Shown: piece after piece, positions 33,622 through 39,256 of the stretch
Layout of the letters: every line of letters starts with the position of its first letter
How positions within the stretch are numbered: the first letter of the stretch is position 1
From: a virus
Direction: 5' to 3' (one strand)
DNA: 43,681 bases
IMG/VR virus record: IMGVR_UViG_3300033153_002424
Location: 1 to 43,681 of that record
Made by a program: the position numbers and the translations under genes
The notes under the pieces: model-generated
What the model was told of the DNA's origin: nothing
The model's database searches: none
The model's input: the letters and a program-made list of their open reading frames with translations, nothing else

Positions 33622-34041
33622 ATGAGTATGAAGAAGAAACGCAAGCCGTATGAAGTCCAGCTAAAAGACCCGCGCTGGCTTGAGTTGCGACAGAAGGTGT
33701 TAGAGCGTGATGATTGTGTATGTTCATCATGCGGACGGCAGCAGTCGGCACATCAGGCATACCAAGTGCACCATAAAGACTACAGGCCCAATGCAATGGC
33801 GTGGGAGTATCCACTTGAAGACCTTGTAACGATGTGTGATGACTGTCACGGCCATATTCATTCATACCTTGAAAGCATCAGGAAGCTTGTTCGACGCATG
33901 GACCCTGACGAGCTTGAGGTGTTTGTTCATATGTGCTTTGGTCGTTTCCATTCTTGGATGGATCGAACGGGAGGAACTAGCCGTATTAGATACTGGCGGG
34001 AATGTAGCGAGATTATACCAAGATCGGAGGACAAACAATGA
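33622..34041 (+). CDS. HNH endonuclease, 139 aa
   Basis: DPRWLELRQKVLERDDCVCSSCGRQQSAHQAYQVHHKDYRPNAMAWEYPLEDLVTMCDDCHGHIH contains the CxxC pairs, the HH of the beta strand, the central Asn and the last His of the HNH fold. AGGAG precedes the ATG. It is directly upstream of the initiator gene with ATGA overlap, so it may be a cargo or homing-type nuclease, or a resident processing nuclease. Confidence 0.8.
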   Translation: MSMKKKRKPYEVQLKDPRWLELRQKVLERDDCVCSSCGRQQSAHQAYQVHHKDYRPNAMAWEYPLEDLVTMCDDCHGHIHSYLESIRKLVRRMDPDELEVFVHMCFGRFHSWMDRTGGTSRIRYWRECSEIIPRSEDKQ

Positions 34042-34844
34042 ACGGGTGGTTGAAGGTTCACAGGAAATTTAAGGAGTGGGAGTGGTACTCTGACTCCAAG
34101 GCGGTCCACTTGTTCATACACCTGCTTTTAAGCGCCAACCATGAGCCTCGTAAGTGGCGCGGGGTAATGATCGAGTCAGGCCAATTCGTTACGTCAATAG
34201 AGAGCCTTAAGGCCCAGACGGGGATAAGCTCACAATCAGTCAGGACTATACTCAAAAAACTGTGCCAAACAAGAGAGGTAACATGCCAACCAACAAACAG
34301 ATTTACTATGATAACTATCTGTAACTGGGCTAGTTACCAAACTATAGATTCGCCGATCAACACGCCAGCTAACAAACAACTAACAAACAATCAACAAACA
34401 GCTAACAAACAACTAACAACAAACAAGAAGGATAAGAACTATAAGAATGAAAAGAAAATACAGTGCAACCTAGCGCCGTTGCTCCAAGCTTACCAACGTC
34501 GATACTCCGCTACTCCAGACTTAAATGGATTCAGGGCAGGAATTACAGAAGCCGTCAAGTCTGGTTTCATGCAGGAGAATATTCAACCAGCTTTGGATTT
34601 TCTTAACACACAGACCGACTGGAAGTATATCCCTGCATTCAACGCACCAAACAAGCTAAGGGATAACCTTGGCAGGATCTACGCCCTTTCTCAGGAATCA
34701 ACCGACAAGGAGGAAGAGAATAGGAACTTAGCTCTTGATATCTTGAGCGAACCTAAGGATGCAGAGATAGACCGAGCCTCACCAGAAGAGATAAAGGAAG
34801 CAACAAGCGAGCTTACAAAGAAGTTCAAAAGGCATGGTAAATGA
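34038..34844 (+). CDS. DnaD-like replication initiator containing iterons, 268 aa
   Basis: The N-terminal 100 residues are a winged HTH of the phage replication type (WLKVHRKFKEWEWYSDSKAVHLFIHLLLSANHEPRKWRG..., GQFVTSIESLKAQTGISSQSVRTILKKL, FTMITICNWASYQ). Then comes an Asn/Gln/Thr-rich linker encoded by 11-bp repeats, and a DnaD-like C-terminal part. It probably binds the origin and recruits the DnaB helicase encoded next (ATGA overlap). The arrangement parallels lambda O, whose origin also lies within the gene. Confidence 0.8.
   Translation: MNGWLKVHRKFKEWEWYSDSKAVHLFIHLLLSANHEPRKWRGVMIESGQFVTSIESLKAQTGISSQSVRTILKKLCQTREVTCQPTNRFTMITICNWASYQTIDSPINTPANKQLTNNQQTANKQLTTNKKDKNYKNEKKIQCNLAPLLQAYQRRYSATPDLNGFRAGITEAVKSGFMQENIQPALDFLNTQTDWKYIPAFNAPNKLRDNLGRIYALSQESTDKEEENRNLALDILSEPKDAEIDRASPEEIKEATSELTKKFKRHGK
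34369..34423 (+). repeat. Five 11-bp iterons, candidate replication origin
   Basis: CTAACAAACAA occurs at 34369, 34380 and 34402, with the variants TCAACAAACAG at 34391 and CTAACAACAAA at 34413. The spacing is exactly 11 bp. A purine-rich, A-rich stretch follows. Repeats lie inside the initiator gene, as lambda ori does in gene O. Confidence 0.65.
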
Positions 34845-36187
34845 TTGATAGACCATTACCGAGTAGTGCAGAGATGGAGCATGCTGTCTTAGGTTGTCTG
34901 TTACAGTCTCCCGATAAGGTGATTGATACGATATCTGAGTTGATGGTTGATGACTTCTATTCACCACGCAATAAAGAGGTGTACGCAAGCTCTATCGAGA
35001 TAATTGATGCAGGGAAAACGCTCGACCTACCAACGCTCGACGCCCTACTGCAAGACAAAGGCGGACATACCACCATTGAGGAGCTACGACAAATCAGGAA
35101 CAGCGTGGCTACTGTTGCAAATGTTAGGTCATTTGTCCAAACCGTTAAAAACTACAGCAATGCGCGAAAGATAATCTGCACATGCAGTGACCTAATGGGA
35201 CAAGCATTTGAAACCAAGGCAGACGACATACCAAAGCTGCTAGACTCCGCAGAGGGTTCAATCTTCACCATAGGAGCATCTACCAAGGAAGAAGGCTTTA
35301 CGCACGTCACAGGCGCATTAGGCGGCGCTATCGAAGGAATTATGGGTATGGCTTCCGGTGACCCACGGCATGCAGGGATACCAACTGGGTTTACAGAGCT
35401 GGATAAGTGGATAATAGGATTGCGTAAACAAGAGATTATCGTTATTGCCGCGCGTCCATCGCTAGGCAAGACCGCCCTTGCGTTGAATGTGCAAAGGCGC
35501 ATGGCGTCAAGTGGCCATTCGGTAGGCATCGTATCACTTGAAATGTCAAAAGAGAAGCTTTGCCAGCGGCAGATATTTGAGATCTCTGGAATTGACTCGC
35601 GCTCGCTGTCGAACGGAAGTATAACAGCAGCCCAAATAAATGTCGACATTCCCAAGGCTTGCGAAGAGCTTTCAAAAATGCCTATCTATTATTACGACTC
35701 CACCCCAGATTGGCCGACAGTCAAAAGGCGCATCAGGCAAGCTGTCAGGGAGCACAATATAGATTCTATCATGATTGACTATTTACAGCTTCTAAGGCTT
35801 GGCCGAAAGATGGACTCACGGCAGTTAGAGGTTGCTGAGCTGTCCGCTAACCTGAAGATGCTTGCGAGGGAGCTGGATATTCCTATTGTGATATTAGCTC
35901 AGCTTAATCGCGAGGCGGAGAACAAGACGCCGAAGATATCCGACCTGCGTGAGTCTGGTGCTGTTGAGCAGGATGCAGACATCATTATTCTCTTGGACAG
36001 GAAGCGAGAGTCAAGCGATGCCGACACCGCCAGATGTGTCCAGGAGGGCAGAGGAATTGAAGTGAAAGGGATTATAGCAAAGAACCGTAACGGCGCAACA
36101 GGAACCGCCAACCTATTGTTTTTCCCAAAATACACCCGCTTTGAAGATCAGAGCAGGATGTATGATTCAGACGTACCGAATTTTTAG
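34841..36187 (+). CDS. dnaB: Replicative DNA helicase, DnaB-like, 448 aa
   Basis: Unwinds DNA at the fork as a hexamer. The DnaB N-terminal domain (SAEMEHAVLGCLLQSPD...) covers residues 1-120. The RecA-like domain has Walker A AARPSLGKTAL at about 203-213, Walker B SIMIDYLQLL with Asp313, and DLRESGAVEQDADIIILLDR downstream. Full length for the family. Start overlaps the initiator stop (ATGA). Confidence 0.94.
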   Translation: MIDRPLPSSAEMEHAVLGCLLQSPDKVIDTISELMVDDFYSPRNKEVYASSIEIIDAGKTLDLPTLDALLQDKGGHTTIEELRQIRNSVATVANVRSFVQTVKNYSNARKIICTCSDLMGQAFETKADDIPKLLDSAEGSIFTIGASTKEEGFTHVTGALGGAIEGIMGMASGDPRHAGIPTGFTELDKWIIGLRKQEIIVIAARPSLGKTALALNVQRRMASSGHSVGIVSLEMSKEKLCQRQIFEISGIDSRSLSNGSITAAQINVDIPKACEELSKMPIYYYDSTPDWPTVKRRIRQAVREHNIDSIMIDYLQLLRLGRKMDSRQLEVAELSANLKMLARELDIPIVILAQLNREAENKTPKISDLRESGAVEQDADIIILLDRKRESSDADTARCVQEGRGIEVKGIIAKNRNGATGTANLLFFPKYTRFEDQSRMYDSDVPNF

Positions 36188-38786: not shown

Positions 38787-38787
38787 G

Positions 38788-38815
38788 TTGACATTCCGCA
38801 AGCGTGTAGTATATT
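38788..38815 (+). promoter_or_regulatory. Strong promoter with dyad operator (site E), drives the tRNA-like RNA
   Basis: TTGACA (38788-38793), 16 bases, TATATT (38810-38815), the best match to consensus here apart from the promoter at 39485. The dyad TTGACATTCCGCAAG spans 38788-38802 and is the exact reverse complement of the first 15 bases of site B. No coding gene follows for 440 bases. Confidence 0.8.
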
Positions 38816-38964
38816 ACAATCAAGATCTAAGACAATTGAAACCACCACGAGGCGAGAGGTTCGCACGAATCGAAAGATTGAATGAATGCGGCCATGTAAC
38901 ACGCACCGCAACGCCTGTACAGCAGAGCGGCATTAGTCCAGCAAGATGCTACGGTACCCGATTC

Positions 38965-39051
38965 CACTGTGTCTCGGCGTAGGGGCCAAGGAAGGACTCG
39001 CGAGGAAACACCTTGGTAGGTTCTCCGGTTAAAATCCGGACGTGGTGACCA
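38965..39051 (+). ncRNA. tRNA-like module with encoded CCA, 87 nt
   Basis: CACTGTG (38965-38971) can pair with CGTGGTG (39041-39047) using three G-T wobbles. CCAAGG (38986-38991) pairs with CCTTGG (39011-39016) round a 19-nt loop, and TCCGG/CCGGA (39024-39040) with a 7-nt loop forms a T-arm. Then ACCA. There is only a poor D-arm (GGC/GCC). The alternative is that CACCACG at 38843 is the true acceptor partner, giving a 209-nt RNA with tRNA-like ends, as in tmRNA. The two models cannot be separated by eye. Confidence 0.45.
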
Positions 39052-39151
39052 ATCGCCCTCTACGAGGAGAGATCGAAGCCTATTCATTTAGGTAATTACA
39101 GGAAGCAATGACTGTTGAATCGTAGATGACAGCCGGGAAAGACCGGCATAA

Positions 39152-39238
39152 GCTGACGTAGTTCAATACGAGCAGAACACTCGCTGGGCCTGAGAAAATA
39201 TGCGAGAGATTGAAGTGCAAATCTTCACGTTGGCACCA
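39152..39238 (+). tRNA. Unusual tRNA-like cloverleaf with 17-nt anticodon loop
   Basis: Acceptor GCTGACG/CGTTGGC (7 bp, two G-T wobbles), TA, D-stem GTTC/GAAC with a 10-nt loop, one A, anticodon stem CTCGC/GCGAG (5 bp), a 17-nt loop instead of 7, a 4-nt variable region, T-stem TGAAG/CTTCA with loop TGCAAAT, discriminator A and encoded CCA. The D-loop lacks the usual GG and T-loop position 55 is G, not T. All stems are complete, but no normal anticodon can be assigned. A degenerate tRNA, a tRNA with a 10-nt insertion, or a tRNA mimic are all possible. Confidence 0.6.
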
Positions 39239-39256
39239 AACCCAAAGGAGGACTAA

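Follow-up and report, generated by a model that had tools for sequence, protein, structure and literature searches.

What is the use, to a phage, of a leader that is free of genes and carries two units resembling tRNAs? The question is raised by a viral contig of 43.7 kb, the window in what follows (the whole stretch of 43,681 nucleotides that was analysed, positions 1 to 43,681 of the IMG/VR record IMGVR_UViG_3300033153_002424). The contig belongs to a tailed phage and encodes a lambda-type portal, a gpA-type terminase, an Erf-like annealing protein, a DnaD-like loader and DnaB. Its gene-free stretch (38787-39256, around 470 nt) is flanked by the replication side, with DnaB at 34841-36187, and by a series of small genes of no assigned function towards the end of the record. 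An HNH endonuclease-like gene (33622-34041) stands directly before the genes of the DnaD-like loader and DnaB.

The answer that we propose is that the strongest constraint in this leader is a UGACA/GAAAGA element ahead of the second tRNA-like unit, a fold that is common, almost letter for letter, to hundreds of unrelated bacterial viruses, and which probably marks either the site where the transcript is cut or the way in which it is read.

The leader and its two tRNA-like units

The leader opens with the strong promoter that an earlier, sequence-only reading had noticed (Table 1), from which a transcript is predicted to start at around 38822. This promoter heads two tRNA-like units, both with ACCA ends, and the next gene is preceded by AAAGGAGG and encodes a product without any match in Pfam or PHROG. 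We searched for close relatives with the window DNA and with four of its proteins, and none was near enough to share the RNA; the terminase was the only one of the four proteins that gave matches (29-35% identity, on short contigs). The leader as a whole does not fold better than its shuffles (z -1.1).

Table 1. Features of the leader, in coordinates of the window
Feature	Position	Strand	Basis or remark
Sigma-70 type promoter, TTGACA-16-TATATT	38788..38815	+	11/12 consensus matches
-35 box, TTGACA	38788-38793	+	spacer of 16 nt to the -10 box
-10 box, TATATT	38810-38815	+	
tRNA-like unit 1, 209 nt	38843..39051	+	large insert replacing the normal anticodon domain; shuffle test, minimum-energy fold
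Unit 1, acceptor	38843-38849/39041-39047	+	
Unit 1, D-arm	38852-38864	+	
Unit 1, T-arm	39024-39040	+	
Unit 1, ACCA	39048-39051	+	
P1 helix, 5' strand, TCTACGA	39059..39065	+	perfect 7-bp partner of 39120-39126; P1 register rule in relatives
P1 helix, 3' strand, TCGTAGA	39120..39126	+	ends at the base before UGACA; register rule
Conserved linker, TGACA	39127..39131	+	invariant in the covarying set bar rare TGGC/TGACG variants
P2 hairpin, GCCGG-GAAAGA-CCGGC	39132..39147	+	exact family consensus; conservation, covariation
Tail, ATAA	39148..39151	+	A-H-H conserved, G at 1%; putative RNase P cut at 39151/39152
tRNA-like unit 2, 87 nt, ACCA end	39152..39238	+	acceptor is helix P3; relaxed ARAGORN match, spacing rule
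Next gene, 67 aa	39257..39460	+	ORF list

Both units have the hallmarks of a tRNA, namely acceptor, D-arm, T-arm and CCA end. In unit 2 all the stems previously described were recovered: an acceptor GCTGACG/CGTTGGC with two wobbles, a D-stem GTTC/GAGC closing a D-loop of 5 nt without GG, and a T-stem TGAAG/CTTCA with the altered T-loop TGCAAAT, followed by ACCA. The anticodon loop of 17 nt that had been claimed for it holds in the minimum-energy fold, which is a cloverleaf with that loop. ARAGORN with relaxed settings takes these 87 nt for a tRNA-Pro(GGG) that has a normal 7-nt loop, CTGGGCC, and a long variable region, therefore the 17-nt loop is one of two readings of this unit. The relaxed search gave no match in 2000 dinucleotide shuffles and none elsewhere in the window. 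With default settings ARAGORN finds 0 tRNAs in the window and does not accept unit 2, and neither unit passes the tRNA model of Rfam (RF00005, no match in the window at E <= 10). Neither of them folds better than its shuffles (z only -0.82 in each case).

Regarding unit 1, the T-arm (TCCGG-TTAAAAT-CCGGA) and the ACCA behind it were found as described. Two partners had been offered for its acceptor strand, CACCACG at 38843 or a site at 38965. A perfect acceptor of 7 bp at 38843 is not rare in itself (871 of 40000 shuffles); combined with a D-stem GCGA/TCGC at precisely the distance of a tRNA, 2 nt behind the acceptor, it occurs in only 12 of 40000. Therefore 38843 is the better supported partner and 38965 the less supported one. 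The free-energy fold of 38843-39051 yields acceptor, D-arm and T-arm unprompted, and contains no 5-bp arm with a 7-nt anticodon loop.

A conserved hairpin between the two units

Between the units lies a closed domain of 7 bp followed by a GCCGG/CCGGC hairpin. The sequence-only reading had named this module in passing; both of its parts are present, the module (39059-39151) folds better than shuffles (z -2.4), and it is the important part of the stretch. It is a member of a widespread phage element. The element consists of a helix P1, the linker UGACA, a hairpin P2 (NNNNG-GAAAGA-CNNNN) and A-H-H. The pattern TGACR, a 5-bp stem closed by G-C, a GAAAGA loop and A occurs at 39127-39148 with the exact consensus, and the acceptor of unit 2 (helix P3) begins 4 nt after P2. 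Actually, the window obeys every rule of the family: P1 to the base, the consensus P2, the 4-nt tail, the tRNA-like and its CCA.

When phage records were searched permissively with the leader, 25 matches were obtained, and all but four fell on one spot of 28 nt (39124-39151), in unrelated and mostly unannotated places. The consensus TGACAGCCGGGAAAGACCGGC is found in at least 120 stretches of IMG/VR and at least 119 stretches of a species-level genome set, while the chance expectation for its 21 fixed bases is well under one. At other loci there are copies with differing stems, nearly all of them base-paired. In a separate scan, where the third stem pair was forced away from C-G and the remaining free positions were left open, all four free pairs were complementary in 76 of the 123 matches, against an expectation of 2%, and 22 different stem pairs were counted. 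The covariation score was 0.454 (60 distinct sequences, chance matches included) against 0.192 +- 0.026 in shuffles; none of 500 shuffles reached this value, and structures slid along the sequence scored at most 0.149. The covariation of the stem means that the P2 hairpin is real at the level of RNA (or of a single strand). The constant parts of the P2 region are UGACA, G-GAAAGA-C and the A that follows. We discarded the idea that the TGACA of the hairpin is part of a -35 box TTGACA, because TGAC is preceded by C in 51% of cases and by T in 9%.

The window has no match to any Rfam family at gathering or permissive thresholds (E <= 10). Among 14 related loci compared with Rfam at the gathering threshold there was no intron, and no known family, a group I intron for example, accounts for the fold. 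Nor did we find a description of the element, by string or by topic, in the published open-access papers searched. The P1-UGACA-P2 element is apparently undescribed, and is absent from Rfam.

Carriers of the element

The genome stretches with the consensus come from many phyla, and the hosts of the carriers include Bacteroidetes, Clostridia and Proteobacteria. The general pattern was matched five times in 200 genomes from a single bacterial phylum, and only one of these matches is fully base-paired; this one belongs to the very genome that had led us to that phylum, with three copies of the motif on one contig. Given this near-absence from the sampled host chromosomes, the element looks like a feature of phages or prophages. 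In E. coli genomes the matches listed were weak ones inside an integrase gene.

Motif-bearing records mostly have one copy and up to six. When six motif-bearing phage records were compared, the window included, no protein was common to more than three of them. At the sensitivity of this comparison it is therefore unlikely that a phage partner protein is required; a host factor is more likely, or else the RNA itself.

The lambdoid phage mEp390 (L015:1439-1521) and the unrelated Dibbivirus PSKM (L262:2453-2536) have in common a segment of 83 nt, 94% identical and with P2 at its end, which suggests that the module moves between phages. On the minus strand of a 322-kb contig (L265:4128-4384) there are tandem units of 78 nt, each with P1-UGACA-P2, followed by an intrinsic terminator. 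This array is a free-standing, multi-copy version of the element.

Such an array resembles a sponge, and one can ask whether the element is a binding site or sponge for a host nuclease or regulator, or whether the tRNA-likes act as decoys for defences that target tRNAs. The latter, which is close to what the sequence-only reading had imagined, would agree with the remodelled anticodon arms of around half of the tRNA-likes. Nevertheless, the array of L265 holds five copies, whereas most genomes have one, too few for titration; about half of the units linked to the hairpin are ordinary tRNAs (29 of 54); and no Ro/TROVE protein was found in 24 motif-bearing records, hence this is not a Y RNA system. 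Decoys for CCA, EF-Tu or synthetase enzymes, which the sequence-only reading had also offered, have no specific support either, and the strongest constraint lies on the UGACA/GAAAGA element, to which that reading gave no weight. We consider sponge and decoy improbable.

What precedes and follows the hairpin

Upstream of P2 we found no strongly conserved sequence. A Watson-Crick partner of 6 bp within 60 nt was present in 22 of 256 cases (baseline 5.6 +- 2.6), and this excess exists at a single offset, where the helix P1 ends exactly at the base before UGACA (-1). The interior of P1 varies in size, being a tetraloop at the least and more than 100 nt at the most. We rejected a simple short hairpin immediately before P2 as a general rule: its excess was weak and the long-range test of P1 was clearer. 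The P1 domains of L233, L298 and L327 share CCCTTAACYGGTG ... ATACRGGT..AACAGT, which hints that the interior of P1 may hold a larger conserved RNA.

Downstream, a long-range helix P3, often a tRNA acceptor, begins 3-6 nt after P2 (around 20 cases per position versus 3.4 +- 1.7). A tRNA or tRNA-like lies within 14 nt of P2 at 64 of the 279 non-redundant sites, where 2.5 were expected. Canonical tRNAs, predicted by default ARAGORN and hence blind to the motif, begin almost only 3-7 nt after P2: 35 start within 14 nt after it and two between 14 and 80 nt. There are none on the opposite strand within 400 nt, and none that end less than 36 nt upstream of P2. The copies of the element lie on one strand, the sense strand. 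The order module, P2 and tRNA is repeated four times each in L029 and L199.

Default ARAGORN accepts 29 of the 54 strictly defined linked units. The other 25 are non-canonical, 17 of these being longer than 100 nt (up to 214 nt), with an oversized or absent anticodon arm while acceptor and T-arm are kept. The proposal that linked tRNAs are less canonical than others was dropped, as the difference is not significant within 60-100 nt (29/37 versus 125/146, p 0.31). The tRNA-Leu-like RNAs behind P2 in L279, L306, L311, L345, L377 and L379 form a family that keeps D- and T-arm, but in which the anticodon or variable region is enlarged by tens of bases. In the Pantoea phage PSKM, an unannotated stretch of 1.5 kb between helicase and terminase (L262:1485-2957) contains several unannotated tRNAs or tRNA-likes and a P2 with a GAAAGT loop, and in a gut phage contig (L019:1798-2182) a tRNA-Pro linked to P2 is closely followed by a tmRNA and another tRNA.

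The undescribed RNA with tRNA-like modules that the sequence-only reading had postulated is therefore not a peculiarity of the window, and since its odd anatomy recurs behind the hairpin in unrelated phages, it is not the product of local decay. One could regard the units as decayed ordinary tRNA genes beside an unrelated hairpin, without joint function, given that unit 2 is readable as tRNA-Pro(GGG) and that both units fail the tRNA model and fold like shuffles. However, the spacing from hairpin to tRNA recurs in dozens of unrelated phages, a 25-fold excess, which contradicts this explanation for the family and makes it the least probable one that we considered.

Other features behind P2 are only modestly enriched (long stems 15 versus 3.4, terminators 18 versus 9.1). 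At 46 of the 279 sites a gene starts behind P2, and 144 have no assigned downstream device. The conserved unpaired core, with helices and insert lengths that vary freely, is typical of self-cleaving ribozymes and ligand-binding RNAs, which P1, UGACA, P2 and P3 might build together. However, neither the 5' side of P1 nor the 3' side of P3 showed conserved bases, and no specific gene class downstream was evident by eye from the translated starts, so we judge such an RNA very improbable. In Acinetobacter phage Alexa (L014:1517-1570) a hammerhead-like core CTGACGA...GAAA...GTC, with stems I-III complete, stands right behind P2; the match has 20.4 bits (E 0.011), below the Rfam gathering threshold of 52. 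The hammerhead core CUGANGA...GAAA has no match in the window and is found at L014 only. At the same locus (L014:1508-1553) there is a chance-level match to Flavi_CRE of Rfam (16.5 bits, E 2.1), because the first hairpin of that model resembles P2; it is probably convergence or chance.

Proposed release by RNase P and an alternative

The anatomy of the element is secure, and from it we infer transcription, processing and function. The spacing rule, together with an acceptor and a T-arm that persist where a decoding anticodon is missing, suggests an RNase P cut between P2 and the tRNA-like. Our best model, to which we give a probability of around 0.4, is that the tRNA-like would be a target of RNase P, cut just 3' of P2. 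The tRNA-like parts would be kept because the enzymes of tRNA processing recognise acceptor and T-arm and need no anticodon. In the window, RNase P would cut at the 5' side of unit 2 and leave a P1/P2 RNA with a defined 3' end, made of P2 and the 4-nt tail. The 5' side of this RNA would be freed by processing behind the CCA of unit 1, and an RNA of around 100 nt would be excised from between the two units. Other phages have ordinary tRNAs, long RNase III-like stems, terminators and once the hammerhead-like sequence at the same position, each of which could generate an end of the RNA. The functional part would be the UGACA/GAAAGA core, bound by a factor that all bacteria have, given that the carriers compared have no phage protein in common. 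The whole proposal, in which tRNA-likes without any decoding role serve as RNase P substrates and so excise a conserved UGACA/GAAAGA RNA from the polycistronic transcripts of phages of many phyla, and this RNA acts on a host machine found in all bacteria, RNA polymerase for instance, is more tentative, and falls some way short of an even chance.

Several observations weigh against cleavage by RNase P. The 144 sites without an assigned device and the 46 gene starts mean that it is not a general rule, a hairpin so near the cleavage site could hinder the enzyme, and unit 2 alone folds no better than shuffles. Furthermore, leaders of the L115 type, where copies are placed behind a promoter and ahead of a strong terminator, fit antitermination better. 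In that explanation, similar to put, the nascent P1-UGACA-P2 RNA would bind the host RNA polymerase, so that pauses and terminators are ignored in long untranslated stretches (leaders, tRNA arrays), and the tRNA-likes would be passengers or would release the polymerase-bound RNA. Copies are found in the early leaders of lambdoid-type phages; L115 has two of them between the promoter and a strong intrinsic terminator, and the leaders of BUCT708-type phages have two near the promoter, ahead of a strong terminator. Terminators follow the element at twice the control rate, and the element is specific to phages, on the sense strand and without a common protein. There is also a precedent, since put of HK022 needs no phage protein (PMC9378689). 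Nevertheless, antitermination would not need the strict spacing of 3-7 nt to tRNAs, no terminator was found on the + strand near the element of the window, and the element differs in sequence and fold from put, which is around 70 nt long. We regard antitermination, the main rival of our model, as possible, although somewhat unlikely. It is compatible with RNase P processing, since the enzyme could trim an element that is bound to the polymerase.

Comparison with known RNA systems

The units share acceptor, D-arm, T-arm and CCA with the tRNAs of phage clusters, and one linked unit in two is a true tRNA. The units differ from such clusters in the long spacers with the P1/P2 module that separate the tRNAs, and in that the units of the window fail the tRNA model. 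Unit 1 is like tmRNA (RF00023) in that its tRNA-like ends lie far apart and the anticodon domain is replaced, but P2 is not a feature of tmRNA, and searches of the window for the tmRNA model, a tag frame and intron-bearing tRNAs gave nothing convincing. Bacterial Y RNAs (YrlA) have a tRNA-mimicking module joined to a second conserved stem, as the element has; no Y RNA family of Rfam matched.

As put does in HK022, the element would act as a phage-specific cis RNA; it is found in early leaders (in some phages), has two adjacent helical domains and would need no phage protein. The put RNA acts through the zinc-binding domain of the polymerase (PMC9378689). Set against put by its description, the element has another sequence and a smaller conserved core, is not confined to lambdoid phages and has a fixed spacing to tRNAs. 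If our reading is right, it would be a second, far wider protein-free control RNA of phages besides put. A conserved core of 21 bases in phages without a common gene points to a host target common to bacteria, addressed by RNA alone.

In architecture only, the element resembles the eukaryotic lncRNAs MALAT1/mascRNA and NEAT1, where a tRNA-like lies directly 3' of a conserved structured element and needs no decoding anticodon. There the RNase P cut at the tRNA-like sets the 3' end of the upstream RNA, which in the phage element is predicted. MALAT1 and NEAT1 belong to another kingdom and have no sequence relation to the element, in which no triple-helix element was identified. Their tRNA processing is unusual among lncRNAs, and a phylogenetic study of 2025 calls them the only such lncRNAs (PMC12941219). 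If the model is true, the misshapen "tRNAs" of phages may be processing signals instead of translators, existing phage genomes could be re-annotated with the pattern of the element alone, and bacterial viruses would have their own counterpart of MALAT1/mascRNA maturation.
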